Shown piece by piece: positions 22,383-43,639 of a stretch of 54,947 bases of DNA (positions within the stretch are counted from its first letter, which is position 1; the number at the start of each line of letters is the position of its first letter). Source of the DNA: Xinfangfangia pollutisoli (GTDB lineage Bacteria > Pseudomonadota > Alphaproteobacteria > Rhodobacterales > Rhodobacteraceae). The notes under the pieces are model-generated. The model saw only the letters and a list, made by a program, of their open reading frames with translations. It was not told the origin of the DNA and made no database searches. A program made the translations under genes and the position numbers. Where the stretch lies: positions 1-54,947 of the forward strand of contig NZ_JAICBZ010000015.1 in the NCBI RefSeq assembly GCF_020179405.1. Direction: 5' to 3'.

Positions 22383-22422
22383 GTGTATACAGTTACGCCG
22401 TACTTGTCGACAAGAATTGACT
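22383..22422. promoter_or_regulatory. Paired GntR/FCD-type operators between ALDH and SDR
   Basis: GTGTATACAG (22383-22392) and TTGTCGACAA (22404-22413) are palindromes with centres exactly 21 bp apart. The second adjoins a -35-like TTGACT at 22417-22422 facing the SDR operon. TTGTNNACAA-type sites are typical of FCD GntR proteins; one is encoded in this operon. Confidence 0.6.
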
Positions 22423-22469
22423 TTGTGTGTGAGATGTGGGTTAAGCTGCGGCAAGCTTAGGGAGACCAA

Positions 22470-23258
22470 ATGAAAACCGGACTGAATGGGAAGGCGGCCC
22501 TTGTCACCGCCGGCGCACGCGGGCTTGGCCGGGCTTCGGCCTTCGCGCTGGCGGAAGAGGGCGCAAGAATTGCCGTGGCCGGCCGCGATCTGCAGCGGAT
22601 GGCCGGGCTGGAAGCCGAATTGCGGGCCGCCGGCGCGGCCGATGTGCGCCTGGTGCGGATCGACCTGGCCGAGCGCGCCTCGATCGCGGCGGGGGTGGAA
22701 GAGGTGGTCCAGGCCTTTGGCGGGCTGGATGTCCTGGTCGCCAATACCGGCGGTCCCTCGTCGGGTCCGTTCATGGATTTCGACCGGGACGCCTGGCAAT
22801 CGGCGCTGGATGAAACCTTCCTGCCGCTGGTCGATCTGTGCCGGGCCGCGCTGCCCGCGCTTGCCCGCTCGGGCCGGGGCCGGATCATCTTTGTCACCAC
22901 GGTGGGCGTCAAAGTCGTGCAGCCGAACATGGTGCTGTCGGATTCGATCCGGCTTGCCACCGTCGGCATGGCGAAATCGCTGTCGATCGAATTCGCGGCC
23001 GAAGGCGTGACCGTCAACTGCCTGTGCCCCGGTCCCTTCGGCACCGACCGGATGGAATACCTCGTCACCTCCTCGATGCAGCGCGACGGGCTGGACCGCA
23101 AGGCGGCCGAGGCGCTGTGGCTGGGCGAGGTGCCCGTGGGCAAATTCGGCGATCCCCAGGATTTCGGCGCCATGGTCGCCTTCCTTGCCTCGGATCGCGG
23201 CTCTTTCATCACCGGCACGGCCATCGCGCTCGATGGCGGCAAGTCCCGCGCCTATTAA
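22470..23258 (+). CDS. Atypical short-chain dehydrogenase/reductase-like protein
   Basis: A 262-residue SDR fold with a VTAGARGLG nucleotide loop (Ala where the first Gly is usual), the NAG-like ANTGGP, and the C-terminal VNCLCPGPFGTDRM. The catalytic Tyr-x3-Lys is replaced by Ser157-x3-Arg161 (VLSDSIR), and the catalytic Ser by Thr. This matches the FabG-like subgroup known to depart from the SDR tetrad, so it is probably stable and functional, but with a different or no redox chemistry. GGGAG lies seven bases before the ATG. First gene of an operon with a ThDP enzyme, a cupin and GntR. Confidence 0.85.
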   Translation: MKTGLNGKAALVTAGARGLGRASAFALAEEGARIAVAGRDLQRMAGLEAELRAAGAADVRLVRIDLAERASIAAGVEEVVQAFGGLDVLVANTGGPSSGPFMDFDRDAWQSALDETFLPLVDLCRAALPALARSGRGRIIFVTTVGVKVVQPNMVLSDSIRLATVGMAKSLSIEFAAEGVTVNCLCPGPFGTDRMEYLVTSSMQRDGLDRKAAEALWLGEVPVGKFGDPQDFGAMVAFLASDRGSFITGTAIALDGGKSRAY

Positions 23259-23273
23259 GAACTGGATCGTCCC

Positions 23274-24923
23274 ATGCTTGACAATTTTCCCGCCGCCGAT
23301 GGTGGCACCGCCCTGGTCGCCTGGCTGAAATCCGCCGGGACGGAACATGTGTTTTCCGTCTCGGGCGGGCCGATCAACCCGGTCTATCGCGCCTGCGCCG
23401 AGTTGGGCGTTCAGCTTGTGCATTGCCGCCACGAGGCCGCCGCCTGCTATATGGCCGAGGCCCGCGCCCGGGTGAATGGCAAGCTGGGCGTGGCGATGGT
23501 GACCCTGGGGCCGGGCGTCACCAATGCGGCGACCCCGGCGATCGTGTCCAGTCTTGGCGGCACGCCGCTTCTGATCATCGGCGCGCAATCCAGCACGGCG
23601 GTCACCGATCGCGGCGCGGGCATGACCTTCGACGTGCTGCCCGCGATGCGCGCGGTCACGAAATGGGCCGGCCGTTGCACCGATCCGCGCCGCCTGCAGG
23701 AATATCTGGACATGGCCTGGCGCCATATCTGGGCCGGGCGCCCGGGGCCGGTCTTCCTGGAAGTGCCGACCGACATCCTGCATGCGCCGATCGAGGACCA
23801 TTACCGCAGCCAGCTGCCGCCGCCGCCGGCGAAACCCGGTCTGCCCGGCATCTGCGCCGGCGACCGGCAGGCGTTCGAGACGCTGCTGGCCGATGCCAGG
23901 CGCCCGATCCTGCTTCTGGGCGACGATGTATTCTTCAATCCCAGCGACCGGCTGGCCGAAGCGGTGGAGAAGCACCATCTGCCCTTCTTCACCCTGCGCC
24001 TTGCGCGCGGCGCGCTGGATGAACGCCACCCGCTTTGCGCGGGGCCCGGCTATGTGCCCTGCAATGCCGCGCTGAAGCGCGCGCTGGCGGAATCGGATCT
24101 GGTCATTCTGGTCGGCCACCATTTCGAATTCGATCTGGGTTTTGGCGCCGGGCTGGGCGAGGCGACCAAAGTGGTGCAGGTCGCCACCGATGCGGTTCTG
24201 CTGCATCGCAACCGCCGGGCCGACATCGCCTTCAACACCAGCGCCTTCCACTTCCTCTGGCTTCTGGCCGAGGCCGCGGCGGCGCCCTCTGACCGGGCCT
24301 GGGGCCAGGCGCTGGTTGCCGAATGGCAGGCCGAGCGGGCCGCCCAGGCCGGCGAGAACGGGCCCGAGGGGCTGCATCCGATCAATGCCATCGATGCCGT
24401 GACCGACGCCGCGCCCGAGGACACGATCTTTGTCACCTCGCATGGCAATGTGGATTTCTGGGCCGATGGGCGCATCCAGGTGAAGGCCCCGGGCCGCTAT
24501 CTGCGCGCCGGCCAGTCGGGCACGCTGGGCGCCGAGGTGCCCTATGGGCCGGGCGCGCGCTTTGCCGATGGCAAGGCGCCGGTCGTCGTGTTCGTGGGCG
24601 ATGGCGGCGTGGGCTTCCATGTGACCGAACTGGACACGGCCGAGCGCTACGACGCGCCGGTGATCATCGTCGTCCTGGATGACGAGATGTGGGCCGCGAT
24701 CTCTTTGCCGCAGGAAATGACCTATGGCACGACCTGGGAAATGAACCTGCCCCGCCGCGACTGGGCAGGGGTGGCGCGGGCGCTGGGCGGCAAGGGCTGG
24801 CTGGCGCGCAGCGAGACCGAAATCGCCGAGGCGCTGCGCGCGGCCATTGCCTCGGGCAAACCCGCGATCATCCAGGTGCCGGTCCGCAGCGTGATCAGCC
24901 CCTATATGAAATCCATTTCCTGA
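23274..24923 (+). CDS. ThDP-dependent enzyme (acetolactate synthase/benzoylformate decarboxylase superfamily)
   Basis: A 549-residue enzyme with the three-domain layout of the family. The activating Glu54 is in CRHEAAACYM, and the central domain has the usual Rossmann-like region. The ThDP/Mg motif begins FVGDGGVGF but closes with LDDEMW, where most members have NN; the Asn that binds Mg is therefore Asp. It probably decarboxylates or ligates a 2-oxo acid. Regulation with an ALDH suggests an aldehyde product (inference). It starts 15 bases after the SDR gene. Confidence 0.83.
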   Translation: MLDNFPAADGGTALVAWLKSAGTEHVFSVSGGPINPVYRACAELGVQLVHCRHEAAACYMAEARARVNGKLGVAMVTLGPGVTNAATPAIVSSLGGTPLLIIGAQSSTAVTDRGAGMTFDVLPAMRAVTKWAGRCTDPRRLQEYLDMAWRHIWAGRPGPVFLEVPTDILHAPIEDHYRSQLPPPPAKPGLPGICAGDRQAFETLLADARRPILLLGDDVFFNPSDRLAEAVEKHHLPFFTLRLARGALDERHPLCAGPGYVPCNAALKRALAESDLVILVGHHFEFDLGFGAGLGEATKVVQVATDAVLLHRNRRADIAFNTSAFHFLWLLAEAAAAPSDRAWGQALVAEWQAERAAQAGENGPEGLHPINAIDAVTDAAPEDTIFVTSHGNVDFWADGRIQVKAPGRYLRAGQSGTLGAEVPYGPGARFADGKAPVVVFVGDGGVGFHVTELDTAERYDAPVIIVVLDDEMWAAISLPQEMTYGTTWEMNLPRRDWAGVARALGGKGWLARSETEIAEALRAAIASGKPAIIQVPVRSVISPYMKSIS

Positions 24924-24937
24924 GCAGGGAGAAGACA

Positions 24938-25270: not shown

Positions 25271-25330
25271 TCGCCAGGCCCGAAGGCCTGCCCCGACAAG
25301 ATCAGAAACGCGTCAGTTCAGTGAGGCAAC

Positions 25331-26023
25331 TTGACTTTGCACGAGAAAGCCGGAGCCAAGGCGTCATCCGAGGAAATCGTCCAGATCCTTGAAGACGATA
25401 TTCTGAACGGGCGTTTGCCGCCTGGGACGAAGCTTGACGAGCAGGCGCTCGCCAATCGGTTCAACGTCTCGCGCACCCCCGTGCGCGAGGCGATCCGGGA
25501 ATTGTCGGCCAACAACCTGGTCGAGGTGCGCCGCAATCTTGGCGCAACGGTCAAGACCCTGACCGCGGCCGAGGTGATCGACATGTTTCTGGTGCTGGCC
25601 GAGCTGGAAGGCCTGGCCGCCCGGCTGTGCGCGCGGCGGATGTCGATCGAAGAGATCGAAGAGGCCCGCGCCTGCAACCGGGCCTGTGCCGAGGCCGCGG
25701 CCAACAATGACTATGCCGGGTTCCTGGCCGCGAATGCCGAATTGCATGCGCTGATCCAGCGCGGCGCGCGCAGCCAGTTTCTGGCGACCGAAGCCGCGAA
25801 ACTTGGCAAAAGGCTGGCCGGCTATCGCCGGGCGATCACCCATCCGCGCCAGATGGCCAGCTCGCTTGACGTGCATGAACGCATCCTCAGCGCGATCTCG
25901 GCCGGGGATGAGGCGGCGGCGCAATCGGCGATGCGGGCGCATGTCGATGTGATCGCCGGATCGGCGGCCGATATCGTCATGGCGCTGGGCAATGCGCCCA
26001 CGGCCAAGCGCGACATCGGCTAG
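25331..26023 (+). CDS. GntR-family regulator with FCD domain (local regulon candidate)
   Basis: A 230-residue regulator starting at TTG 25331 (TGAGG six bases upstream). The winged helix has ALANRFNVSRTPVREAIREL (about 41-60), the full FCD-type recognition pattern. The FCD domain carries the His positions in AELHALIQ, DVHERIL and MRAHVDV. It is fourth in the SDR-ThDP-cupin operon, whose promoter has two TTGTNNACAA-type sites. The same spaced sites occur before the CoxMSL/TRAP and Pot operons, making it the best candidate controller of all three (inference). Confidence 0.87.
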   Translation: MTLHEKAGAKASSEEIVQILEDDILNGRLPPGTKLDEQALANRFNVSRTPVREAIRELSANNLVEVRRNLGATVKTLTAAEVIDMFLVLAELEGLAARLCARRMSIEEIEEARACNRACAEAAANNDYAGFLAANAELHALIQRGARSQFLATEAAKLGKRLAGYRRAITHPRQMASSLDVHERILSAISAGDEAAAQSAMRAHVDVIAGSAADIVMALGNAPTAKRDIG

Positions 26024-26106
26024 GCGGACCTTCCGCAAGCGACAGGACAAGAAGCCGGCGGGGCTGCCCTCGCCGGGTGGTGAGATGCATTCCTATGGAC
26101 AGAGCC

Positions 26107-27288
26107 ATGACCGGATCCCGACTGATTTCCAACACCATGCCCGAACACGGCCAGCCCCTGACCGAAACCGAAAGCCAGATCGCCGGCAAGGCCGGTCCGG
26201 CGCGGGTGCGGGTGATGCTGGGCGCCTTTCCCGATTACGCCCCCACGCCGCTGGTCGACCTGCCCGACAGCGCCTCGCGCTTCCGGGTTGGCGCGGTGAT
26301 GCTGAAGGATGAAAGCGGCCGCTACGGTCTGGGCAGCTTCAAGGCGCTGGGCGGGGCCTATGCCGTCGCGCGGCTACTGCAGGCGCAGCTGTCGGACCAG
26401 CTGGGCCGCATGGTGGCGCCGGAAGAGCTGTTGACGCCCGAGATCCGCGCGCTTGCCGCCAGGATCACCGTCTGCTGCGCCACCGATGGCAATCACGGCC
26501 GCTCGGTCGCGCGGGGGGCCAGCCTGTTCGGCTGCCGCTGCGTTATCTATCTGCATGCCGGCGTCAGCACGGGCCGCGAGGCGGCCATCGCGCAATTCGG
26601 CGCCGAAATGCGCCGGGTTCCGGGCAATTACGACGATTCCGTCGCCGAGGCGCGCCGGGTGGCCGAGGCCGAAGGCTGGCTGCTGGTGTCGGATTTCTCG
26701 TCGGAAGGCTATGAAGAGATCCCGGGCCTGGTGATGCAGGGCTACACGATCATGATGGACGAGATCCTGGCCGAAGCCCCCGCGCCCTTCACCCATGTCT
26801 TCGTCCAGGCGGGCGTCGGCGGGCTGGCGGGCGTGGTCTGCGGCTATTTCCACGATGTGCTGGGCGCCAGCCGCCCGCGCACCATCGTGGTCGAGCCGGA
26901 TCTTGCGCCCTGTCTGCAGGCCAGTGCGGCGGCGGGCCGTCTGGTTTCGGTGCCGGCGGGCGCACCCACCGTCATGGCGATGCTGGAATGTTACGAGCCT
27001 TCGCTGGCCGCCTGGCGGATCGTCGCGAAAAGCGCCGATGATTTCCTGCTGATCAGCGATGCCGAGGCGGTGGCCGGGCTGCGCCGGCTGGCGGGCGAAA
27101 AGGCCGGCGACCGCGGGCTGGTGATCGGCGAGTCGGGCGCTTCGGGCTATGCCGCGCTGCAGGTGGCGGCCGATGACCCGGATCTGCGGGCGCGACTGGG
27201 GCTGGACCGCACGTCCAGGGTCTTGCTGATCGGCACCGAAGGCGCCACCGACCCCGAAGTCTATCAGGCGCTGCTGGGCCAGGCCTGA
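26107..27288 (+). CDS. dpaL: Diaminopropionate ammonia-lyase
   Basis: A 393-residue PLP enzyme closely following E. coli YgeX/DpaL. It has YAPTPLVDLP, KDESGRYGLGSFKALGGAYA with PLP Lys79, TDGNHGRSVA, QAGVGGLAG, and IGESGASGY near the end. It turns 2,3-diaminopropionate (either enantiomer, in known members) into pyruvate and two ammonia. The start is uncertain: ATG 26107 gives the best family length, with ATG 26098 and GTG 26077 as alternatives. It follows gntR by 83 bases. It implies that the pathway releases, or the cell imports, diaminopropionate or a related amino acid. Confidence 0.9.
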   Translation: MTGSRLISNTMPEHGQPLTETESQIAGKAGPARVRVMLGAFPDYAPTPLVDLPDSASRFRVGAVMLKDESGRYGLGSFKALGGAYAVARLLQAQLSDQLGRMVAPEELLTPEIRALAARITVCCATDGNHGRSVARGASLFGCRCVIYLHAGVSTGREAAIAQFGAEMRRVPGNYDDSVAEARRVAEAEGWLLVSDFSSEGYEEIPGLVMQGYTIMMDEILAEAPAPFTHVFVQAGVGGLAGVVCGYFHDVLGASRPRTIVVEPDLAPCLQASAAAGRLVSVPAGAPTVMAMLECYEPSLAAWRIVAKSADDFLLISDAEAVAGLRRLAGEKAGDRGLVIGESGASGYAALQVAADDPDLRARLGLDRTSRVLLIGTEGATDPEVYQALLGQA

Positions 27289-27326
27289 TCCGGCAGCGGG
27301 CGGCCCGCGCGCCCGGGCCCCATGGG

Positions 27327-28253
27327 CTAGATCCCGGCCGGCGGCGCCGTGCTGCCGGTCGGCTGAAAGAACCCGGTCACGAAGCTGTGGAAGGCCTGGG
27401 CCGGCGGCCGCAGGCTTTGACCGCGCAGATGCAGGGCGCAGATGCTGACCGGCGCCAGCGTTTCGCGGATCGGTCGGGCAATGACCTGGCGCCCGTCATA
27501 GGTTGCCGAAGTGTCGGGCAGCGCGTTGTGGATGGTATAGCCGCGACCCTGCCCGACCAGGCCCCGGATCAGTTCGAACGAGGTTGATCTGTAGGCGATG
27601 GCCGGGGTGATGCCCGCGGCCTTGAACAGCGACAGGAAGTAGTCGCGGGTGATCGGCAGGTCGAGCAGCAGATAGGGCGCCTCGGCCAAGTCGGCCAGGC
27701 TGACCGAAGGCGCCGCCGCCAGCGGATGCGAGGCCGGCAGCAGGACGCAGGGCGGCAGCGCCTTGAGGCGGGTGGCGGCGATCTCGGGCGGAAGCCCGTA
27801 ATCGTAGCCGATCGCAATCTCGTGCCGGCCTTGCAGCAGCCCGTCCAGAATCCCCGCCTGGCTGGCCTCGTCCAGCCGGACCGTCAGCGCCGGCAGGCGT
27901 TCCGAAACCTCGGCCAGCAGGCGCGGCAGATAGCGCAGCGCCAATGTGCCAAGACAGCCCACGCGCACCTCGCCCCGGGTCTCGGGCCCGATCTGCCCGA
28001 CCCGGTCCTGGAACTGGCGGACATGCCCCATCAGGACCTCGCATTCCGCAATGAAGCGGCGGCCGGCGGCGCTGAGCGTCACGCCCCTGGCGTGATGGCG
28101 GATGAACAGCTTCGCCCCGACCGCGTGTTCCAGATCGGTAATCGCGGCGGAAAGCGAGGGCTGGGATATTCCCAGATCGCGCGCCGCCTGGGTGATGTTT
28201 CCGAATTCGGAAACCGCAATCGCATAGCGCAGCGCCCGGAATGAAAGATGCAT
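27327..28253 (-). CDS. LysR-family regulator
   Basis: A 308-residue LysR protein. The HTH is at about 4-60 (ITQAARDLGISQPSLSAAITDLEHAVG), and the periplasmic-binding-like effector domain starts near residue 90. It is divergent from the 2-hydroxyacid dehydrogenase gene and probably controls it. The 255-bp gap holds a GGCCC-N5-GGGCC repeat at 28298-28312 and otherwise GC-rich sequence without a recognised feature. It is convergent with dpaL. Confidence 0.88.
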   Translation of the reverse strand: MHLSFRALRYAIAVSEFGNITQAARDLGISQPSLSAAITDLEHAVGAKLFIRHHARGVTLSAAGRRFIAECEVLMGHVRQFQDRVGQIGPETRGEVRVGCLGTLALRYLPRLLAEVSERLPALTVRLDEASQAGILDGLLQGRHEIAIGYDYGLPPEIAATRLKALPPCVLLPASHPLAAAPSVSLADLAEAPYLLLDLPITRDYFLSLFKAAGITPAIAYRSTSFELIRGLVGQGRGYTIHNALPDTSATYDGRQVIARPIRETLAPVSICALHLRGQSLRPPAQAFHSFVTGFFQPTGSTAPPAGI

Positions 28254-28508
28254 TGGCCTTCCCGATCTTTGGCATAGGCAAGAAGTATTTTAGCTGGGGC
28301 CCGGTTTGGGCCAACATGGCGTGGCAGTTCGAAAACCTGCGCGGCCGCGGCGATGTGTCAGGGCCCGGGCCTGAAGCGCGATTGCGCGGCGCCGGGCCGG
28401 GCGCAACCGCGGCAGACCCCGGCGCCCTGGCCCGGCCCCGCCCCTCTGTGCCCGGCGCCTTCGCCCCGCCGCGGGCGGCGATCCTTCCTTGACTGAATGA
28501 GAGACCGC

Positions 28509-29474
28509 ATGACTGATCCTTCCCCATCCCCGACTGATGCCGCCCCCGGCGCGCTGGTCTTCTATTCTGAATTCGACGACCCCGAAGAGTGGCGCGCGGC
28601 GCTGCTGGCGCAGATGCCCGATCTGGATTTCCGGGTCTGGCCCGATATCGGCAACCCCGACGAGGTGCGCACGGTTTTCGCCTGGCTGCCGCCGAAAGGC
28701 TTTTTCAGCCAGTTCCGCAACCTGACCCAGGTCATCAATCTGGGCGCGGGTGTCGATGCGCTGGTCGGGCGCGATGACCTGCCGGATCTGCCGATCTCGC
28801 GCCTGTCCGATCCGGGCATGGTGCGGCTGATGTGTTCCTATGTCGCCTTCGGCGTTCTGCGCTTTGCCCGCGACATGGACGATTTCGAAGCGGCCAAGAA
28901 GCGGCGCGCCTGGCATTACATCCATCCGCGGCCCCTGCACCGGATCAAGGTTGGCGTGATCGGGCTGGGGGCGCTGGGCGCCTCGGTCGCGCGGGCGATT
29001 GCCGATCTGGGCTTTGCGGTCACCGGCTGGGATATCGCGCCGAAAGCGCTGCCGAATGTCACCTGCCTTAGCGGAGAGGCGGGCCGGCTGCAGGTTCTGG
29101 GCGGATCCGAGATCGTGGTGAACATGCTGCCCCTGACCCCGCAGACGCGCGGGGCGCTGGATGCTGCGGCCTTCGGCGCCATGGCGCAGGGGACGAAATT
29201 CATCAATGCCTCGCGCGGGGCGGTGGTGGTCGAGCGCGATCTGATCGCGGCGCTGCAATCTGGCCATCTGGGCGGCGCCCTGCTGGACGTGTTCGAGACC
29301 GAGCCCCTGCCGCAGGACCACCCGTTCTGGGACATGGACAATGTCTTCATCACCCCGCATCTGGCCAGCATCACCGTGCCCGAAACCGCGGCGCGCGACG
29401 TGGCCGAAAGCATCCGCCGGGTGGCCCGCGGCGAGGCGCCGCTGAACCAGATCAATCCGCGCAACGGGTTCTGA
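28509..29474 (+). CDS. D-2-hydroxyacid dehydrogenase (glyoxylate/hydroxypyruvate reductase A-like)
   Basis: A 321-residue NAD(P)-dependent reductase of the GhrA branch. The nucleotide motif is VGVIGLGALGASVA; catalytic Arg is in NASRGAVVVE, Glu in DVFETEPLP, and His in ITPHLAS. GhrA-type enzymes reduce glyoxylate or hydroxypyruvate and are about this length, shorter than classical D-lactate-type members. ATG 28509 has GAGAG just upstream; ATG 28497 is also possible. The gene ends at a strong bidirectional terminator. Confidence 0.87.
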   Translation: MTDPSPSPTDAAPGALVFYSEFDDPEEWRAALLAQMPDLDFRVWPDIGNPDEVRTVFAWLPPKGFFSQFRNLTQVINLGAGVDALVGRDDLPDLPISRLSDPGMVRLMCSYVAFGVLRFARDMDDFEAAKKRRAWHYIHPRPLHRIKVGVIGLGALGASVARAIADLGFAVTGWDIAPKALPNVTCLSGEAGRLQVLGGSEIVVNMLPLTPQTRGALDAAAFGAMAQGTKFINASRGAVVVERDLIAALQSGHLGGALLDVFETEPLPQDHPFWDMDNVFITPHLASITVPETAARDVAESIRRVARGEAPLNQINPRNGF

Positions 29475-29543: not shown

Positions 29544-31883
29544 TCAGCCGCCTTCCCGCGCCGTCTTCGCCAGATGCCACAGGACGCTGGCCGTCAGCGG
29601 CGTGCCCGTCACCCCGATATCCAGCGCATGGGTCACGGCATTGGCAATCGCCGCCGGCGGCCCGATCGCCCCGCCTTCGCCCAGGCCCTTGGCGCCCAGC
29701 GGGGTCAGGCTGGTCGGGGTTTCGAAATGATGCACCTCGATCATCGGGATCTCGGGCGCCTGCGGCATCAGGTAATCGGCGAAGCTGGTGGTCAGGGGCT
29801 GGCCTTCCGCGTCATAGACGAAATGCTCCCACAGGGCCGAGCCGATGCCCTGCACCACGCCGCCCCGCACCTGGCCGTCGACGACCAGCGGGTTCAGGAT
29901 GGTGCCGCAATCCTCGACCACCACATAGCGCAGCAGTTTCAGCTTGCCGGTGCGCAGGTCGATATCCACCACCGCGGCATGGACGGCATTGGAATAGCTG
30001 CCATCCTTCGGCCCGTCGACGCTGGCCTCGGCCGCAAGCCCCGGCGCCATGCCTTCGGGCAGCCGGTCGACATTGCGCAGGGCCGAGCGGGCGACATAGG
30101 CAAGATCGACGAAACGGTCGGGCTGGTCCGAGACGAAGGCCTTGTTGTCGCCCAGCTGCACGCTGCCCACCGGGGCCTGCAGCAGATGCGCCGCGATGGC
30201 GCGCATCTTGCCGGCGATTTCGGTCGCGGCAAGATGCACCGCGCCGCCGCCCAAGGGGCCGCCGCGGCTGCCCCAGGTGCCCACGGAATAGGGCGCGCTG
30301 GTATCGCCGTGCCGGACATAGATCCGGTCGGGGGTGATGCCCAGCGCATCCGAGGCGACCTGCGCCATGGTGGTTTCCAGCCCCTGGCCGTGATTTTGCA
30401 GCCCCAGGTCGATCAGCACATGGCCATCGGTCATCACCTCCAGCCGCGCCGCGATATAGCCGGTTTCGATCGGCACCCGCCTGCGGGTGAAATCGGGCGT
30501 GCCATGCGCCGTCTGCTCGATGAAACAGGCGATGCCGACGCCGATCCGCCGGTTGGGATCGCCCGCGGTCGCGCTGGCACGGGCAAAGTCGGGCGCCAGC
30601 AGTTCGCGGGTCTTTTCCAGCGATTCCACGTAAGAGCCGGGGTCGTAGCTGAAGCCCAGCACATTGCGATAGGGGAAGGTCCGGATGATGTTCTTCAGCC
30701 GGAAGGCGATGGGGTCCATGCCGATTTCCCGCGCGATATCGTCCATCAGCCGTTCCTGCGAGAACACGGCCGAGGGACGGGCGACGCCGCGATAGGTGCC
30801 ATTGGGGCATTTGTTGGTGGCAAGGCTGCGGAAGGTCGCCTCATAGGCCTGGAAGTCATAGGGCCCCGGCATCACCTTCGCCGCCATGCCGGATTCGCCG
30901 GCCGCCGAGAAGGGATAGGTGGAATAGGCGCCGATATCGACGGTGATATCGGCCTTCAGCCCCAGAAGCCGGCCCTCGGCCGAGACATAGGCCTCAAGCG
31001 TGTGGCGATGGTCGCGGGCATGGATCGAGGCCATCAGGTTTTCCCGCCGATCCTCGATCCATTTCACCGGCCGGCCGGTCTGGATCGCGCACCAGGCGAC
31101 CAGCACCTCTTCGCCGAAGACCTGGCCCTTCACCCCGAAACCGCCGCCGACATCGGGCGCGATCACACGGATGCGGCTTTCGGGCAGGCCCAGTTCCTCG
31201 GCGATATAGGTCCGCACCAGATGCGGCATCTGGGTCGAGGACCAGACGGTCAGGAAGCGCTGGCCCGGATCGTATTCGGCCACCACCCCGCGGCCTTCCA
31301 TCGGCACGCCGGTATGGCGCTGATTGGTATAGGTGCGGCGGATGACATGGGCGGCGGCGGCGCGGGCGGCCTGCAGATCGCCGCCCTTCATCTGCCGTTC
31401 CACCCAGGTGTTGTTCTTCCAATGGTCGAACAGCGGCTGGACGGCCGGGTCCAGCGCCTGTTCCATCGTGGTGACCGGATCGAGGAAGTCGAAATCGGCA
31501 AACACCATCTCGGCCGCATCCTCGGCCAGATAGGCATCTTCGGCCAGCACCGCCGCGATCGGCTCGCCCACGAAGCGCACCCGGCCCTGGGCCAGAAGCG
31601 GCTGTTCGGCATATTGCATCTCGGGGTAGTCCTGATGCGACTTCATCGACAGTTTGCCGATATCCTTGCCGGTGAAGACGGTCACCGCCGGCTCAAGATC
31701 GGCCAGCATCGAGGTGTCGACGTCCAGCAGCCGCGCATGCGCGACCTGGGCGCGGACGAATTTCAGATGCAGGCAATTGGCCGGCCGGATGTCGTCGATA
31801 TAGCGGGCGCGACCCGACAGCAGGCGCGGATCTTCCAGCCGCAGGACACGGGCGCCGATCTGGCGTGGCGTTTCGGCTTTCAC
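29544..31883 (-). CDS. Molybdenum hydroxylase large subunit (CoxL-like, form II)
   Basis: A 779-residue subunit of the xanthine-oxidase family. It has DVGGGFGVKG, a TYRGVARPSA segment where form II CoxL proteins have AYRGAGR (not the AYRCSFR of true CO dehydrogenases), and the C-terminal GLGEGGAIGPPAAIANAV with the catalytic Glu. It therefore probably hydroxylates an N-heterocycle or aldehyde rather than CO. Start GTG 31883 overlaps the small-subunit stop (GTGA). It is last of the FAD-FeS-Mo operon. No Mo-cofactor insertion (coxDEF/xdhC) genes are in the window; only coxG is, across the divergent operon. Confidence 0.9.
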   Translation of the reverse strand: MKAETPRQIGARVLRLEDPRLLSGRARYIDDIRPANCLHLKFVRAQVAHARLLDVDTSMLADLEPAVTVFTGKDIGKLSMKSHQDYPEMQYAEQPLLAQGRVRFVGEPIAAVLAEDAYLAEDAAEMVFADFDFLDPVTTMEQALDPAVQPLFDHWKNNTWVERQMKGGDLQAARAAAAHVIRRTYTNQRHTGVPMEGRGVVAEYDPGQRFLTVWSSTQMPHLVRTYIAEELGLPESRIRVIAPDVGGGFGVKGQVFGEEVLVAWCAIQTGRPVKWIEDRRENLMASIHARDHRHTLEAYVSAEGRLLGLKADITVDIGAYSTYPFSAAGESGMAAKVMPGPYDFQAYEATFRSLATNKCPNGTYRGVARPSAVFSQERLMDDIAREIGMDPIAFRLKNIIRTFPYRNVLGFSYDPGSYVESLEKTRELLAPDFARASATAGDPNRRIGVGIACFIEQTAHGTPDFTRRRVPIETGYIAARLEVMTDGHVLIDLGLQNHGQGLETTMAQVASDALGITPDRIYVRHGDTSAPYSVGTWGSRGGPLGGGAVHLAATEIAGKMRAIAAHLLQAPVGSVQLGDNKAFVSDQPDRFVDLAYVARSALRNVDRLPEGMAPGLAAEASVDGPKDGSYSNAVHAAVVDIDLRTGKLKLLRYVVVEDCGTILNPLVVDGQVRGGVVQGIGSALWEHFVYDAEGQPLTTSFADYLMPQAPEIPMIEVHHFETPTSLTPLGAKGLGEGGAIGPPAAIANAVTHALDIGVTGTPLTASVLWHLAKTAREGG

Positions 31884-32380
31884 TGCGCGGCCTCCGTTTT
31901 GGCGGCCAGGGCGTCGCCGATGGTTTCGCGCACCGCCTCGACGATGCCCTGATAGCCGGTGCACCGGCAGATGTTCCCGCTCATCGCCTCGCGGATCTCG
32001 TCGTCATCGGGCATCTGGCCGGCGCTGACCTGGGCCTCGACAAAGGGCAGAAGCGCCATCAGGAAGCCCGGCGTGCAATAGCCGCATTGCAGCGCGTGAT
32101 TGCGGCGGAAGGCCTGCTGCAGCGGATGGGTCGCCTCGGTGCCGCCCAGATCCTCGACGGTGCGGATCGCCCGGCCGTCCATCTGCACGGCGAAGGTCAG
32201 GCAGGACAGGCGCGGGCTGCCGTCGACATGCACGGTGCAGCAGCCGCAGGCGCCATGGGCGCAGCCGATATGCACGCCGGTCAGGCCGCAGTCCTCGCGC
32301 AGGACATCGGCCAGAAGCCGGCGCGGTTCGGCCTCTACCACATGTTTCCTGCCGTTCACGGTCAATGTGATCCTGGTCAT
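31880..32380 (-). CDS. Molybdenum hydroxylase [2Fe-2S] subunit (CoxS-like)
   Basis: A 166-residue electron-transfer subunit. Plant-type ferredoxin cysteines are C40, C45, C48 and C60; the second cluster has C99, C102, C138 and C140 (QCGYCTPG and CRCTGY). All eight ligands are present. It passes electrons from the Mo site to the FAD subunit. The start ATG is eight bases after the FAD-subunit stop. Confidence 0.95.
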   Translation of the reverse strand: MTRITLTVNGRKHVVEAEPRRLLADVLREDCGLTGVHIGCAHGACGCCTVHVDGSPRLSCLTFAVQMDGRAIRTVEDLGGTEATHPLQQAFRRNHALQCGYCTPGFLMALLPFVEAQVSAGQMPDDDEIREAMSGNICRCTGYQGIVEAVRETIGDALAAKTEAAQ

Positions 32381-32387
32381 CTTTTCC

Positions 32388-33260: not shown

Positions 33261-33329
33261 TGCCGCTCCTCTCTGCTGCTGCGGGGTCATCGCCCGCTGG
33301 CTGTCGGATCAGGTTAGGTCGAGGTCAAA

Positions 33330-33380
33330 TTGTATGCAACATAAAAAACTTTGTAGACACATGCGGGGAATGGGTATTAC
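33330..33380. promoter_or_regulatory. Paired operators and promoter between Mo-hydroxylase and TRAP operons
   Basis: TTGTATGCAA (33330-33339) and TTGTAGACAC (33351-33360) have centres 21 bp apart, as at 22383-22413. The second overlaps a -35-like TTGTAG, with 18 bp to TATTAC (33375-33380) facing the TRAP operon. Confidence 0.6.
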
Positions 33381-33431: not shown

Positions 33432-34433
33432 ATGCGTATACGAACAACGCTGACGGGCGGAATCCTCGCCCTGGTCCTGACCGCCGTGGCTGCGCAGGCG
33501 GAAGTCCAGTTGCGGATGGTGGGCGCCTGGGCGCCCGGATTCTCGCCCACGGCCGAGATCGGCAAAAGCTTTATGGAGAACGTCAACCGGCTGGGCGAGG
33601 GCAAGGTTTCGATCCAGTTCATCGGCGCCGATGACGTGATGCCGCCGCTGGATCAGCCCGAGGCGCTGGTGAATGGCGTCTTCGACGTCTGGTATGGCGC
33701 GCCGAATTACTGGGCCGGCGTGGTGCCGGGCGGCGACATCACCGAATTGTCGCCGGCCAAGATCCCCGATGGCGGCCCCGGCACGCCACTGTACGATTTC
33801 CTGGTCGAGGCCTTTGCCGCCAAGGGCGTGCGCTATCTGGGCCATGCCGCGGGCGTGCCGGGCGTTGGCGCGCATTACATGACGACGCGCTTCCCGCTGA
33901 CCTCGATCGACGATCTGAAGGGCCACCCGGTCCGCGTCACCCCGCTGTCGCGGCATTTCGTGCAGAAGGCCGGCGCCGAGTCGATCACCCTGCCGCCGTC
34001 GGAAATCTTCCTGGCGCTGGATCGCGGCACAGTCGATGCGATGACCTGGCCGATCGCCGATGCCTATACCCGCTATGGCTGGCAGGATGTGACCAAATAT
34101 CTGGTCGATCAGCCGATGTATCGCAGCGGCGGCGGGCTGGCGATGAACCTGGACAAATGGAACGCGCTGGAGCCGGAAATCCAGCAGATCCTGCTGGACA
34201 GCGTGAAAGAGACCCAGCTGTTCGCCCAGACCTGGTTTGCCGACAATCAGGATGAGCAGGTCGGGCTGATGAAGGCCGCCGGCATGGAGGTGATCACCCT
34301 TGATCCCGCCGAAGCCGAACGCTGGAACCAGGTCGTGGTCGATGCGCTTTGGGCCTATTACGACACGATCTATTCGCCCGAGCAGATCGCCACGATCAAG
34401 GATCTGTTCGCAGCGGCCGCCCAAGCCGACTGA
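33432..34433 (+). CDS. TRAP transporter periplasmic solute-binding protein (DctP family)
   Basis: A 333-residue protein with signal peptide (about 1-23, AAQAE). It has LVNGVFDVWYGAPNYWAG, the binding Arg in GHPVRVTPLSRHF, and ALDRGTVDAMTWP. The N-terminus is unlike the first DctP in the window, so the two TRAP systems have different ligands. GGGAGC precedes the ATG. Divergence from the Mo hydroxylase suggests the ligand is that enzyme's substrate or a relative (inference). A GC-rich imperfect hairpin follows the stop. Confidence 0.9.
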   Translation: MRIRTTLTGGILALVLTAVAAQAEVQLRMVGAWAPGFSPTAEIGKSFMENVNRLGEGKVSIQFIGADDVMPPLDQPEALVNGVFDVWYGAPNYWAGVVPGGDITELSPAKIPDGGPGTPLYDFLVEAFAAKGVRYLGHAAGVPGVGAHYMTTRFPLTSIDDLKGHPVRVTPLSRHFVQKAGAESITLPPSEIFLALDRGTVDAMTWPIADAYTRYGWQDVTKYLVDQPMYRSGGGLAMNLDKWNALEPEIQQILLDSVKETQLFAQTWFADNQDEQVGLMKAAGMEVITLDPAEAERWNQVVVDALWAYYDTIYSPEQIATIKDLFAAAAQAD

Positions 34434-34493
34434 CGCAGCCGCGGCAGCGGCCCCGCGCTGCTGCCCATCCCCTTCATACAGTCGGACATCGAA

Positions 34494-35003
34494 ATGCGAA
34501 CTCCGCTGCGGGTATTTGACCTGCTTATCACACTCATGGCCTGGATGGCGGCCCTGCTGCTTCTGACATTGATGCTGGCGACCGTCGCGAAGGTCGGGCT
34601 GCGGGCCACCACGGGCTACGGGCTTCTGGGCATTGATCAGCTGAGCGGGCTGATCATGGTCTGGATGACCTTCCTGGGCGCGCCCTGGGTTCTGCGCGAA
34701 GGCGGCCATGTCGTGGTCGACCTGCTGATCCTGAACCTGCGCGGACGCAGCGCCCAGGTCTTTGCGGTCGTCGCGGCCCTGCTGGGCGCGATCGTCTGCC
34801 TGACCATCGCCTGGTTCGGCCTGCAGGCCGTTCTCACCTCGTTGCGGCGCGGCATCCTGGTTGCGGCCGAGCTGGAAATTCCCCGTGCCGTCAATATCGC
34901 GCCCATTCCGCTGGGGATGCTGTTCCTCGGGCTGGAATTCCTGCGGCGGGCGGCAACAGCGCTGTCCGGCGGCACGGTCGTGACGCAAGGCGAAGGACAT
35001 TAA
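34494..35003 (+). CDS. TRAP transporter small permease (DctQ family)
   Basis: A 169-residue four-helix membrane protein. It has the variant family segment LLGIDQLSGLIMVWMTFLG, with GGHVVVDLL following. It is shorter at the N-terminus than the first DctQ. No strong ribosome site is visible before the ATG. It directly precedes the large permease, with one base between them. Confidence 0.88.
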   Translation: MRTPLRVFDLLITLMAWMAALLLLTLMLATVAKVGLRATTGYGLLGIDQLSGLIMVWMTFLGAPWVLREGGHVVVDLLILNLRGRSAQVFAVVAALLGAIVCLTIAWFGLQAVLTSLRRGILVAAELEIPRAVNIAPIPLGMLFLGLEFLRRAATALSGGTVVTQGEGH

Positions 35004-35004
35004 G

Positions 35005-36315
35005 ATGGAATGGTGGGTCTTTCTTTCGACGTTCTTCCTGGGCCTGACCGGGCTGATGCTGATCGGTCTGCCCGTCGCCTTCGCCTTTCTCGCGGTCAAC
35101 ATGATCGGGGTCTATCTGCTGTGGGGCGGCTTCAACGGCTTCAACCAGCTGGTCCTGTCGATCGACAGCTCGATCTCGACCTTCATCCTGGTGCCGATCC
35201 CGATGTTCATCCTGATGGGCTCGGTGATGTTCCATGCCGGCATCGCCGAGCGGATGATCCGGGTGATCGACCAGTGGCTGGGCTTCATCTCGGGCCGGCT
35301 GGCCGTGCTGACGGTGGGCGCCGGCGCGGTTCTGTCGACGCTGACCGGCGTTGCCATGGGCTCGGTCGCGATGCTGGGCGGCACGCTGACCCCCGAGATG
35401 GAGCGGCGGGGCTATGCGCGTACGCTGGCGATCGGGCCGGTCTTGGGCAGCGGGGCGCTGGCGATCCTGATCCCGCCCAGCACGCTGGCGATCGTGCTGG
35501 CCAGCGTGGGCGGCTTCTCGGTGGCCAAGATGCTGATCGCGATCATCCTGCCGGGGATCCTGCTGGCGATCATGTATGTGATCTACATCCTGATCCGGGT
35601 GAAGCTGCGCCCGCAGGATGCGCCGGCCTATGAGGTGCCTTCGGTGCCCCTGTCGGTAAAGCTGCGCGACACGGCGCTGTATCTGGTGCCGCCGGTCATG
35701 GTCGTGGTGATGATTGTCGTCTGCATCTTCACCGGCCTGGCCACGCCGACCGAATCCGCCGCCATCGGCACGTTCATCACCTTCTTCCTGGCGGCGGCCT
35801 ATGGCGATCTGAGCCTGGCCAAGCTGAAACACGCGCTGCTGTCTTCGACCAAGCTGTCGGTGATGATCCTGATCATCATGACCGGCTCGGCCAGCTTCAG
35901 CCAGTTGCTCAGCTTCTCGGGCGCGACCGGCGCGATCACCACCTGGGCCACGGCGCTGGATGTCTCAAGCATCACGCTGATGCTGATGATGATGGCGCTG
36001 GTGCTGATCGTGGGCATGTTCATCGAACAGACCTCGATCGTGCTGATCACCATGCCGATCTTCCTGCCGATCATCGGCGCCATGGGCTGGGATCCGATCT
36101 GGTTCGCCGTGGTGATGATGGTCAATCTGGAACTGGCCACCATCACCCCACCCGCCGGCCTGTCGCTGTTCGTGATGAAAGGCGTCGCGGTGCCCGGAAC
36201 CACCATGGGGCAGATCTACCGCGCGGCGCTTCCCTTCATCCTGATCAACATCTTGCTGATGTTGATCCTGATCCTCTGGCCCGCGCTGGCGCTTTGGCTG
36301 CCCTCGCTGATGTAG
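35005..36315 (+). CDS. TRAP transporter large permease (DctM family)
   Basis: A 436-residue permease with about 12 helices. Family motifs include PMFILMGSVMFHAGIAERM, GSVAMLGGTLTPEMERRGY, ILIPPSTLAIVLASVGG and NLELATITPPAGLSLFVMK. GAAGGA lies ten bases before ATG 35005. With its two upstream partners it completes a second TRAP system, placed ahead of a deacylase gene. Confidence 0.93.
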   Translation: MEWWVFLSTFFLGLTGLMLIGLPVAFAFLAVNMIGVYLLWGGFNGFNQLVLSIDSSISTFILVPIPMFILMGSVMFHAGIAERMIRVIDQWLGFISGRLAVLTVGAGAVLSTLTGVAMGSVAMLGGTLTPEMERRGYARTLAIGPVLGSGALAILIPPSTLAIVLASVGGFSVAKMLIAIILPGILLAIMYVIYILIRVKLRPQDAPAYEVPSVPLSVKLRDTALYLVPPVMVVVMIVVCIFTGLATPTESAAIGTFITFFLAAAYGDLSLAKLKHALLSSTKLSVMILIIMTGSASFSQLLSFSGATGAITTWATALDVSSITLMLMMMALVLIVGMFIEQTSIVLITMPIFLPIIGAMGWDPIWFAVVMMVNLELATITPPAGLSLFVMKGVAVPGTTMGQIYRAALPFILINILLMLILILWPALALWLPSLM

Positions 36316-36344
36316 GCCCGGCCTGACTTTCAAGGAGAGTTCAA

Positions 36345-37616
36345 ATGACTGACACAACGAGAGAAAAGCTGCTCTCGACCATCGAGGCCAAGCGCGATCA
36401 TGCCATCGGCTTCCTGCAGGATCTGGTGCGCATCCCTTCGGTCACCGGCGACGAGGCGGCGGTGCAGAAATTCGTGTCCGATTACATGGCCGGCCTCGGG
36501 CTTGATGTCGACATGTGGGAAACCGACTGGGAGGCGCTGAAGCGCCATCCCGGCTATCGCCCGGTCGCGCGCGGCTATGAGGGCCGGCCGAACATCGTGG
36601 CCACGCGCAAGGGCACGGGCGGCGGGCGGTCGCTGTTGTTGAACGGCCATACCGACGTGATCCCGGTCGGCAATGGCGAAGGCTGGACCGATGATCCCTG
36701 GTCGGCGCTGATCAAGGATGGCCGGATCTATGGCCGCGGCGCCTGCGACATGAAAAGCGGTGTCGCAAGCCATATCCTGGCGCTGGAATACATCGCCGCG
36801 GCCGGGATCCGGCTGAAGGGCGATGTGCTGGTGAATGTGGTGATCGACGAGGAAGTGTCGGGCCATGGCACCCTGGATACGGTGATCCGCGGCTACAAGG
36901 CCGATGCGGGCATTTCGGGCGAGACCAGCGATCTGGCGGTGCAGCCGGCCTGCATCGGGCGGATCTGGTTCGAGATCGCCGTGCAAGGCAAGCCCGCGGG
37001 CATTCAGCAGCGCTATCTGGGCATCTCGGCGATCGAGCTTGGCAACAAGGTCGTCCAGGCGGTGAAAGAGCTGGAAGACCATCGCGTCGCCACCGTCACC
37101 CATCCGCTGTATCCCAATGCGCTGGATTCGCTGCCCTGCATGATCGGCAGCTTCCAGGCCGGCAATTACCCCAGCGCCTTCCCCGACACGGCGCTGCTGA
37201 AGGGCAGCATCGGCACGGTTCCGGGCGAAGATCATGAAGGCGTCAAGCAAAGCCTGCGCGACAAGATCGCAGCGCTTGCCGCCTCGGACCCCTGGATGCG
37301 CGATCACCCGCCGGTGGTGAAATTCGTCGGCTATGACGCCGAAGCCTCGGAGATCCCGGTGGCGCATCCGATCGTGCAACTGCTGTCGCAGGTTCATACC
37401 GAGATCACCGGCAAGGCGCCGGTGATCAGCGGGCGGCAGGGGGCGGCCGATACACGGTTCCTGAATTCCTACGGGGCGACGCCGACGGTGATCTACGGGC
37501 CCGGATCGACGGCCGTGATGCATTCGAATGACGAATATGTCTCGATCGAGGATTACCTCACCGCGATCAAGGTCATGGCGGTCTGCATCTGCGACTGGTG
37601 CGGCATCGACGCCTAA
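36345..37616 (+). CDS. M20-family amidohydrolase/deacylase (ArgE/DapE type)
   Basis: A 423-residue zinc hydrolase. The metal-site motifs are LLLNGHTDVIPVG, GRGACDMKSG and VIDEEVSGHGTL, with a C-terminal VMHSNDEYVSIED. It should release an acyl or similar group from an amino compound in the cytoplasm. AAGGAGAG precedes the ATG. Following a TRAP system and preceding CoxG, it probably works on the imported compound or on the product of Mo-dependent hydroxylation. It is ArgE/DapE-like rather than YgeY-like, although E. coli also places an M20 gene beside ygeX and xdh. Confidence 0.87.
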   Translation: MTDTTREKLLSTIEAKRDHAIGFLQDLVRIPSVTGDEAAVQKFVSDYMAGLGLDVDMWETDWEALKRHPGYRPVARGYEGRPNIVATRKGTGGGRSLLLNGHTDVIPVGNGEGWTDDPWSALIKDGRIYGRGACDMKSGVASHILALEYIAAAGIRLKGDVLVNVVIDEEVSGHGTLDTVIRGYKADAGISGETSDLAVQPACIGRIWFEIAVQGKPAGIQQRYLGISAIELGNKVVQAVKELEDHRVATVTHPLYPNALDSLPCMIGSFQAGNYPSAFPDTALLKGSIGTVPGEDHEGVKQSLRDKIAALAASDPWMRDHPPVVKFVGYDAEASEIPVAHPIVQLLSQVHTEITGKAPVISGRQGAADTRFLNSYGATPTVIYGPGSTAVMHSNDEYVSIEDYLTAIKVMAVCICDWCGIDA

Positions 37617-37681
37617 GCCAAAGCCGGGCCCCCCGGACCCCTGGGGTGCCCGATCATGAACCTGCCGGGGCGGAAGTGAAT

Positions 37682-38290
37682 ATGCCTGTAATCAAACAAA
37701 AATTCGACGTGAACCATCCAAGGCCGGTGGTCTGGGACATGCTTCAGGACATCCCGCGGGTCGTGGGCTGCGTGCCGGGGGCCGCGCTGGATGGCCCGCT
37801 GGACGGCGACAAGGCCAAGGGCCGGGTCACGGTGAAGCTGGGCCCGGTCAAGGCCAATTTCGGCGGCGAGGCGACGATCAGCGCCGACCGCGCCGACTGG
37901 AGCGCGAAGATCGCCGGTGTCGGCGTTGACAAAAGCCATGCCTCGCGGGCGAAGGGCGATGTGTCCTATCGGCTGCTCAGCCCGCAGCCCGGGGTGACCA
38001 CGGTCGAGGTCGAGGTGGATTACGCGCTGTCGGGCTCGCTGGCGCAGGTGGCGCGCGGCGGCATCGTCGAGGCGGTGGCCGAACAGATCTGCGCCGATTT
38101 CGCCGCCAATCTGGAAGCCGAGATCGCCGCCGAAGCCACCCCCGCCGCCCCGCAGACCCCGGCCGATCCCGCCGCGCCGCCCCTGGCCGAGGCGCCGCGT
38201 CCGGTGGCGCGGGCAAGCGAGCTGAACATGGTGCAGATCATGCTGCGGGTGGTCCGGCGCAAGATCGCGCGGCTGTTCGGGCGCGGCTGA
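37682..38290 (+). CDS. coxG: CoxG-like SRPBCC-family protein
   Basis: A 202-residue protein with an SRPBCC/CoxG domain (about 1-145): VWDMLQDIPRVVGCVPGAAL, GPVKANFGGEA and a C-terminal BARGG-like stretch (LAQVARGGIVEAV). A Pro/Ala linker (about 152-176) and a basic amphipathic end, VRRKIARLFGRG, follow. CoxG proteins accompany Mo hydroxylases and help them attach to the membrane. Its place across the divergent promoter from the CoxMSL-like genes ties the two operons together. ATG 37682 has GGAAG upstream. Confidence 0.87.
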   Translation: MPVIKQKFDVNHPRPVVWDMLQDIPRVVGCVPGAALDGPLDGDKAKGRVTVKLGPVKANFGGEATISADRADWSAKIAGVGVDKSHASRAKGDVSYRLLSPQPGVTTVEVEVDYALSGSLAQVARGGIVEAVAEQICADFAANLEAEIAAEATPAAPQTPADPAAPPLAEAPRPVARASELNMVQIMLRVVRRKIARLFGRG

Positions 38291-38319
38291 TCGCGCCGGC
38301 CCTTGCTGATCCCGGATCC

Positions 38320-38349: not shown

Positions 38350-38360
38350 CCGTGCAGCCC

Positions 38361-38388
38361 GGCCGTCAGGTGCTGGCCGTCAGGTGCT
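38361..38388 (+). repeat. 14-bp tandem duplication at the end of the oxidase gene
   Basis: GGCCGTCAGGTGCT occurs twice in direct succession (38361-38374 and 38375-38388), then GGCC. The second copy contains the stop codon of the minus-strand oxidase; the first is an untranslated copy just past it. Confidence 0.9.
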
Positions 38389-39615: not shown

Positions 39616-39630
39616 CGCGGGCTCCGGTTC

Positions 39631-40713: not shown

Positions 40714-40723
40714 GATGTGGCCC

Positions 40724-41533: not shown

Positions 41534-41537
41534 GCGC

Positions 41538-42389: not shown

Positions 42390-42518
42390 GGATCGCCTTT
42401 CAGGGTCCGTTGGGCGAGGCGCAGGCAACAGCGATGCGGGCGGTCCGGATCGGACGGACCGCTTGTCATGGGTCTGACCCTGCGCCCGGACCGGCCGGGC
42501 GCAGGGGCCTGTGGAAAC

Positions 42519-43550
42519 TCAGTTGGCGATCATCTCTTCCGAGAACCAGGTCCGCCATTCCGTCAGCTTTTCGGCGCGCAGTTGCGGGTCGACATAGATC
42601 GCCTCGCTTTGCCATTGCTCGGGCGTCAGGAACACGCCGGGCAGGGCGGCGACTTCGGGCGGCACCTCGACGCCCTCGACCGTGGCGCCGCCTTTCTTGA
42701 TCGCCACGATCTTGGCCTGGACCTCGGGGTCCAGTGCGGCGTCGATGAAGGCATAGGCCAGGTCCAGCTTGTCGGTGCCCTTCATGATGCCGATGGCATC
42801 CATGTTCAGCACCGCGCCCTCTTTCGGAATCACGATCTCAAGGTCGATGCCCTGATCGCGCAGCTGATGCGCCATCATCGACAGCATGACCTGCACCGGG
42901 GTTTCCCCGGTCGAGATCAGCTGCTCGCTGGCCGCATCCGAGGGGAAATAGGCGCGCACATTCGGCTTCAGCGCCTTCAGCTTGTCGGTGGCCTGGCGCC
43001 AGTCCTCGATGCCCAGCCCTTCCATCTTCGCAGTGGCGGCGATGATCGACGAGGGATCGAAGTCGGACAGCCCGATCTTGCCGGCCAGCGCGGGCGACCA
43101 CAGATCGGCCCAGCTGTCAAAGCGGACATCGGGCACCAGGTCGGGCACATAGACGATGGTATAGACATAGGACCAGACGCCGACATGGCCCGGGCTGATC
43201 TTGGCCTGGTCGAACAGCTTGTCGGCATTCGACAGGCGCGACATGTCCAGGGGCTCGAACAGGCCGGAATTCTGGTACAGCCAGCCGACATGCGCCGTGG
43301 TGAAGGTCACGTCGCTTTCCGGCGCGCCGGCGGCAAGCTGCGCCTGGTTCAGCCGGTCGATGGTGCCGCCGGTGATGAACTCGACCTCGGCGCCGGTGTT
43401 TTCGGTGAATTTCGCAGCGATGGTTTCGGCGATCAGATCGCGCCAACCTCCTCCCCAGGAGCTGATGCGAAGCACCTCTTGCGCAAGCGAGACACCCGAA
43501 GATGCCAGCAGGATCAATGCGGTGGTGCCGGATAGTGCAAGCCTAGACAT
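42519..43550 (-). CDS. ABC importer periplasmic binding protein, PotD type
   Basis: A 343-residue protein with signal peptide (1-23, GVSLAQE). It has the PotD-like LRISSWGGGWRDLIAETIAA split by the first strand, GLFEPLDMSRL, WSYVYTIVYVPDLV and GAVLNMDAIGIMKGT. The Asp/Trp pattern that holds polyamine in PotD is not obvious, so the ligand may be another small cation or carboxylate. GGGAGGAA precedes the ATG. A series of spaced operators lies 17-90 bp upstream. It heads the operon that ends with the 2-hydroxyacid oxidase. Confidence 0.9.
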   Translation of the reverse strand: MSRLALSGTTALILLASSGVSLAQEVLRISSWGGGWRDLIAETIAAKFTENTGAEVEFITGGTIDRLNQAQLAAGAPESDVTFTTAHVGWLYQNSGLFEPLDMSRLSNADKLFDQAKISPGHVGVWSYVYTIVYVPDLVPDVRFDSWADLWSPALAGKIGLSDFDPSSIIAATAKMEGLGIEDWRQATDKLKALKPNVRAYFPSDAASEQLISTGETPVQVMLSMMAHQLRDQGIDLEIVIPKEGAVLNMDAIGIMKGTDKLDLAYAFIDAALDPEVQAKIVAIKKGGATVEGVEVPPEVAALPGVFLTPEQWQSEAIYVDPQLRAEKLTEWRTWFSEEMIAN

Positions 43551-43566
43551 GCGTTTCCTCCCTAGA

Positions 43567-43639
43567 ATGCATGCAATGGTAGCAGCGGTGTTTTAAGTAT
43601 GAATCTTTATGTATGCAATAATAAACAACGTGCATGCGA
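43567..43639 (-). promoter_or_regulatory. Three phased operators upstream of the PotD-type gene
   Basis: ATGCATGCAA (43567-43576), ATGTATGCAA (43609-43618) and GTGCATGCGA (43630-43639) have centres at 0, +42 and +63 bp, all multiples of 21. A weaker match, GTGTTTTAAG, sits at +21. The rest of the 262-bp gap to 43812 is GC-rich and holds one hairpin. Confidence 0.55.

Follow-up and report, generated by a model that had tools for sequence, protein, structure and literature searches.

The window, meaning the whole 54,947-nucleotide stretch of Xinfangfangia pollutisoli DNA analyzed here (contig NZ_JAICBZ010000015.1), carries an island of enzyme and transporter genes, a GntR regulator of the FCD type (P0001), and three promoter regions (P1, P2, and P3) holding short palindromes in 21-bp steps. 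In the feature list below, percentages give identity to the ortholog in G238, another genome of the order, and Pfam is named where it supports the assignment.

1471–2232, minus strand: second FCD-GntR gene of the window, outside the P0001 clade
20908–22353, minus strand: aldehyde dehydrogenase (ALDH), proposed P1 target (Pfam; 85%)
22384–22412: P1, putative operator pair between the divergent ALDH and SDR genes, TGTATACA at 22384–22391 and TGTCGACA at 22405–22412 (centres 22387.5 and 22408.5)
22426–22433: weak third P1 site, the half-match TGTGTGAG, in phase; its G238 counterpart in the same phase is the half-match TGTGTTAA
22470–23258, plus strand: SDR dehydrogenase, heading the gene run that holds the GntR gene (Pfam; 84%)
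23274–24923, plus strand: thiamine-pyrophosphate (TPP) enzyme (86%)
25331–26023, plus strand: GntR-FCD regulator P0001, proposed repressor (Pfam GntR 4.4e-20, FCD 2.4e-21; 69%)
26077–27288, plus strand: diaminopropionate ammonia-lyase-like PLP enzyme (NF006058, 463 bits, cut-off 276; 76%)
27327–28253, minus strand: LysR-type gene, divergent from a 2-hydroxyacid dehydrogenase gene
29544–33290, minus strand: molybdenum hydroxylase CoxL/S/M-like genes, proposed P2 target (Pfam; 71–82%)
32388–33290, minus strand: CoxM-like gene, adjoining P2
33331–33359: P2, putative operator pair between the CoxM-like and TRAP genes, TGTATGCA at 33331–33338 and TGTAGACA at 33352–33359 (centres 33334.5 and 33355.5)
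33432–38290, plus strand: TRAP transporter P/Q/M, M20 deacylase, and CoxG-like genes, proposed P2 target (Pfam; 65–90%)
33432–34433, plus strand: TRAP dctP gene, adjoining P2
38380–43550, minus strand: ABC transporter (binding protein, two permeases, ATPase) and FMN-dependent 2-hydroxyacid dehydrogenase, proposed P3 target (Pfam)
42519–43550, minus strand: ABC binding-protein (SBP) gene, downstream of P3
43568–43638: P3, putative array upstream of the ABC operon, with TGCATGCA at 43568–43575, the half-match TGTTTTAA at 43589–43596, TGTATGCA at 43610–43617, and TGCATGCG at 43631–43638

Judging from family names only, the island may encode a pathway in which an imported acyl-amino acid is deacylated by the M20 enzyme, processed by the lyase and by TPP-dependent cleavage, and completed by aldehyde oxidation through ALDH and the molybdenum hydroxylase. 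The LysR gene and its divergent neighbor, a 2-hydroxyacid dehydrogenase gene on the plus strand (PF02826), together span 27327–29474. To the right of the island, a separate block (45721–54470) contains an RpiR-type regulator, an oligopeptide-type ABC transporter, an MlrC-like M81 peptidase, and a HutC-like GntR gene.

Direct reading of the sequence located palindromes at all seven positions proposed by the sequence-only reading, at the distances of 21, 21, 42, and 21 bp that it had given. Six of the seven fit its TGYNNRCA core, and the seventh, TGCATGCG (43631–43638, centre 43634.5), is one base away from it. The first pair, described as lying before ALDH and SDR, occupies more exactly the intergenic stretch between the divergent ALDH (minus) and SDR (plus) genes. 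Because the half-match at 43589–43596 extends the phase, P3 can be read as four positions at 21-bp steps. P2 and P3 have both TGTATGCAA and the 21-bp phase in common. The putative operators lie approximately 21–98 bp upstream of the listed gene starts. A scan for the sigma-70 consensus returned one match at P2, on the minus strand (33357–33329) and overlapping both palindromes, and no promoter-like match at P1 or P3.

These phased pairs are rare. The window contains 29 strict TGYNNRCA matches, which form three pairs within 60 bp, at spacings of 21, 21, and 42. Sites within two mismatches of TTGTATACAA number five in the window, all of them inside the three promoters, and 53 in a genome sample of 100 stretches (1,569,383 bases, 36% of the genome outside the window), equivalent to 1.86 per window length. 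The 830 single TGYNNRCA matches of this sample gave a mean of 0.67 pairs per spacing, with one strict pair at 21 (TTGCCAGCAT/TTGCCAGCAC, L088) and none at 42. At scores of at least 22.5, the sample had no pair at 21 or 42, while the window had two at 21, one at 42, and none at the other 89 spacings tested. A looser score of 20.5 admitted two pairs at 21 and one at 42 in the sample; in the window, it admitted three at 21 (43613.5/43634.5 barely attaining it), one at 42, and five in all over the other 89 spacings. No 21-bp pair matching P1 or P2 in strength was present in the 1.57 Mb sampled, so that the concern that spaced pairs might be common elsewhere in the genome was not borne out in this 36%. 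Since the sample yielded no further strong target, the regulon looks local. When the three intergenic stretches were dinucleotide-shuffled 5000 times, no shuffle contained six sites, none contained two pairs at 21, and none contained three phased pairs.

The gene at 25331–26023 had been read as encoding an FCD-type GntR protein, and the domain search agrees, with an N-terminal GntR HTH (PF00392) and a C-terminal FCD domain (PF07729) both over cut-off. P0001 also matches PDB 6z74 (E 1.1e-12), which we take to be Atu1419. A palindrome with a GT-N2/3-AC core is present near its own operon, namely the P1 pair, which precedes the SDR gene at the head of the GntR gene run. The genome contains 26 FCD genes, 25 besides P0001, and only P0001 and 1471–2232 lie on this contig, which ends 11 kb past P3. 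A tree of these 26 proteins and 32 homologs places P0001 as the sole FCD protein of this genome (1 of 26) within a clade of 31 homologs (support 99/97). As the homologs were picked by similarity to P0001, that choice partly accounts for their grouping with it, and the exclusion of the other 25 proteins is the mainly informative part of the tree. Two homologs near contig ends were affected by a misread offset; as a result, L046 was excluded from the tree and L054 falls outside the clade.

Conservation of the arrangement is documented by one distant genome. A DctP search of 379 other genomes of the order found a single ortholog (78%), in G238, and a P0001 ortholog (69% identical) lies 5 kb from it. 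The G238 island includes orthologs, 65–90% identical, of ALDH, SDR, the TPP enzyme, the cupin, the lyase, CoxL/S/M, TRAP P/Q/M, M20, and CoxG. The 80 kb of G238 examined contain only two strict pairs spaced by 21 bp, both at orthologous promoters: 64109.5/64130.5 on G238:C10, between DctP and CoxM (ortholog of P2), and 72908.5/72929.5, between SDR and ALDH (ortholog of P1). Four other pairs within 65 bp have spacings of 47, 4, 40, and 36, and all are to the right of the island. Identity with G238 is 29 of 31 bp across the P2 pair and 30 of 79 in the flanking sequence; at P1, the spacing is kept and the intervening sequence has changed. The two regulators share 49 of 62 residues in the HTH and 92 of 143 in the FCD part.

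This conservation bears on whether the 21-bp spacing arose by chance among AT-richer promoters. The core invites such doubt, being just 8 bp long with two free and two half-free positions, but both pairs are kept in G238, the 5000 shuffles produced nothing comparable, and the genome sample held no pair so strong at 21. On these three grounds, chance spacing was rejected, and its probability is close to nil. Because G238 retains the proposed repressor gene together with the pairs at both shared promoters, much of the island is probably under the control of a single local switch of the GntR type. The 80 kb examined in G238 contain no counterpart of P3 and no LysR ortholog at E 1e-15; the SBP, the permeases, and the FMN enzyme have no match there at the same threshold, and the ATPase has only paralogs of 26–39%. 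Matches to P0001 at E 1e-55 were absent from 124 other genomes of G238's genus, and plasmid searches for DctP, SDR, and the TPP enzyme gave matches below 60% or none.

More distant relatives of P0001 display the same spacing. In 148 other genomes of the family, the best match by E-value was 41% identical, with none above 43% among the matches listed, and the matches listed by a class-level search were likewise distant. A site within one mismatch of TTGTATACAA occurs at 25 of 31 homolog loci, and strict 21-bp pairs at 5 of 33 (L037, L042, L046, L051, and L068). Companion offsets were also ranked in the direction of the GntR gene, each being compared with all the others. This search was confined to the region upstream of each GntR gene, which yielded fewer anchors than unoriented scoring, and it allowed anchors at most one mismatch in set 1 and two in the remaining two sets. 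For set 1, where 29 loci gave 23 anchors, +21 was the top offset (z 6.5), all 23 anchors having at least a half-site and seven a full one, and −21 ranked second (z 3.2). In an independent set 2, drawn from other families and giving 12 anchors at 29 loci, +21 again came first (z 5.6; 10 half-sites, two full); 17 of its 29 loci had no oriented anchor at two mismatches or fewer, and −21 was absent from the top five offsets. Outside the main clade (seven anchors from 10 loci), +21 led narrowly (z 2.9; five half-sites, no full ones) over −21 (z 2.7) and −87 (z 2.5). Strict in-phase spacing has therefore been kept over evolution, with 21 bp at both G238 promoters and as the top offset in homologs. 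Unoriented scoring showed recurring 21-bp companions as well and, with one far anchor of L068 left out, placed offsets of −22, +20, and +22 well below background; these low scores point to an exact spacing, from which we infer contact between neighboring dimers.

The gene neighborhoods of the homologs partly resemble the island. A DctP-like neighbor was judged by eye to be present in 7 of the 20 loci printed, the automatic pick often being in the wrong frame. The Sinorhizobium medicae homolog faces a TRAP dctP gene, and a malonyl-CoA decarboxylase is annotated there. The two nearest sister regulators adjoin an SDR gene (L035, 28%) or an ALDH gene (L052, 32%), and the sister L113 has a palindrome pair at 23 bp rather than 21. 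Other arrangements were also observed. Upstream of an ALDH-GntR pair that includes a P0001 sister (L112:7899–8018, G123:C1), two TGGTATACCA palindromes stand 110 bp apart, possibly a looping arrangement like that of Atu1419. Near another P0001 homolog, identical TTGCATGCAA palindromes occur 4 kb apart (L114:9386 and 13385, G135:C7), suggesting further multi-promoter local regulons. At L071:4141–4181 (G000:C1), GGGAACACAA, TTGTAGACAG, and CTGTATACAA follow one another at 21 and 10 bp, forming a candidate operator cluster approximately 4 kb from another FCD gene (C1:8074).

The sequence-only reading had assigned all three promoters to the 25331 GntR protein. For P1 and P2, this assignment gains from the GntR ortholog and both 21-bp pairs kept in G238, from the P0001 clade, and from the companion sites; P3 is linked by motif and phase only. 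The ABC operon downstream of P3 has a history of its own. Among 389 other genomes of the order, four encode an ortholog of its binding protein, and these four have no close P0001 ortholog (41% at most). None of 12 further genomes in the window's genus has the binding protein at E 1e-30, and a single scan of genome contigs returned one locus, without gain. On plasmids, 138 records match the gene at E 1e-20, 103 of them from Klebsiella. Five plasmid regions were read (L063–L067, from Rhizobium, Roseivivax, Roseinatronobacter, Pantoea, and Klebsiella), and in all five the SBP gene has LysR, RidA, DUF1028, ArgE, GST, quinone oxidoreductase, type II dehydroquinase, and hydroxypyruvate reductase neighbors. 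The Klebsiella cluster, the only one read from that genus, has IS elements on either side. A 10-mer within two mismatches of TTGTATACAA is absent upstream of nine orthologous SBP genes (L061 and L062, among the loci compared, being near-copies), which rules out the P3 sites as a generic feature of such ABC promoters. Five of the nine lie in annotated clusters, each holding a LysR gene. The absence of sites from these nine promoters and of a P3 counterpart from G238 makes P3 look recruited. The LysR of the window shares 45% identity with the one that accompanies the ABC operon ortholog in Rhizobium bangladeshense, so a LysR-ABC-hydroxypyruvate reductase module may have entered the GntR island by insertion. 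By motif and phase only, it looks as though the ABC-FMN dehydrogenase operon changed hands and joined the regulon.

The same identity raises the question of whether the LysR-type protein at 27327–28253 reads the palindromes, all the more as LysR tetramers, too, bind pairs of sites roughly two helical turns from each other. This is very improbable: the nine orthologous SBP promoters have no such site even though five stand in LysR-holding clusters, and G238 keeps the P1 and P2 arrays with no LysR ortholog in its 80 kb. LysR was rejected as the reader on both counts. It is less improbable, though still unlikely, that P1 and P2 belong to P0001 while P3 is read by another GntR protein of similar motif, for example the FCD protein of L008, in which case the three promoters would not form one regulon. 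With 26 FCD genes, the genome offers candidates, and L008 has TTGTATACAT near its own gene; the P3 sites use TGCATGCA centres, the G238 stretch has no P3 counterpart, and the HutC-like GntR gene (53697–54470) is 10 kb from P3. Against a separate reader, P2 and P3 share TGTATGCAA and the 21-bp phase, L008 falls outside the P0001 clade, and the contig has no FCD gene other than P0001 and 1471–2232. In HutC-type sites, GT and AC are mostly separated by 4 nt (PMC4494728), compared with 2 here.

Cooperative in-phase operators, packed dimers, and two-site tetramers are already known, from AraR, NanR, and Atu1419. AraR of Bacillus subtilis has another effector domain and a larger operator spacing than that found here. 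It is comparable in its GntR-type HTH and in cooperative binding that needs in-phase, properly spaced operators, a cooperativity that would be expected at this island as well, and it differs in forming a small DNA loop between sites (PMC4218819). NanR of Escherichia coli is likewise a GntR-type repressor with three target operons, three dimers packing cooperatively on one operator, but it binds GGTATA repeats and its dimers make contact through an N-terminal extension, in contrast to the separate 21-bp palindromes seen here (PMC8012715). Atu1419 of Agrobacterium fabrum, a VanR-group FCD GntR protein, represses a catabolic cluster and itself, as proposed for P0001, and recognizes a 10-bp palindrome, ATGTATACAT, with an essential G3 and, as here, more than one site per region (PMC7797058). 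There, a tetramer loops the DNA to bridge palindromes separated by 190 bp, and a degenerate palindrome lies at a distance of 109 bp (PMC7797058), whereas those of the island stand side by side in 21-bp phase.

The MatR/MdcY type shares with P0001 the position of homologs beside dctP and a TTGTATACAA motif with 21-bp companions, and differs in that P0001 is about 40% identical. MatR is a malonate-type GntR regulator. No malonate uptake or decarboxylation gene was named among the window proteins scanned, and the TRAP DctP of the window shares only 23% identity with the single homologous DctP recovered (L053). The 2015 GntR motif survey of Suvorova et al. lists MdcY with the groups whose GT and AC are 2 nt apart, and describes extra half-sites 7–12 nt from the centre and double sites at constant distance in divergons (PMC4494728). 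Its control boxes at −20/−21 are near zero on average over 23 groups, although they are measured from the site, a register unlike that of a palindrome centre at 21 (PMC4494728). These values argue against a feature of all GntR proteins, and since −20/−21 served as control positions, the survey may have missed 21-bp companions. No paper describing a 21-bp grammar was found in the open-licence literature.

Taken together, it is quite likely that the palindromes are operators of the 25331–26023 FCD GntR protein, whose dimers would bind cooperatively at 21-bp spacing to repress a local regulon. Each palindrome would bind one P0001 dimer, and the exact spacing would set neighboring dimers on one DNA face, close enough to touch, so that cooperative binding blocks the promoters until a pathway intermediate releases them. 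Repression is favored over activation because the operators lie near gene starts and because of the known FCD relatives. The core of this regulon would be two divergent promoters, one serving ALDH and the probable SDR-TPP-cupin-GntR-lyase run and the other the molybdenum hydroxylase and TRAP-M20-CoxG genes. With the GntR gene inside its own P1-controlled run, P0001 would be autoregulated. The ABC transporter-FMN dehydrogenase operon, with its own phased array, has probably joined it here, providing a case in which an operon accompanied elsewhere by LysR was apparently brought under a local GntR switch. The island also illustrates how a spacing pattern noticed by eye can be checked through conservation in one distant island. 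Beyond it, Alphaproteobacterial FCD GntR proteins of this clade may follow one grammar, in which a strong TTGTATACAA is accompanied on one or both sides by weaker 21-bp companions, read by a row of dimers in contact, and in which the growth of a phased array can draw unrelated transporter operons into the regulon; we regard this generalization as evenly poised. It would offer a testable rule for the targets of this regulator clade: a palindrome, 21 bp, and a companion.
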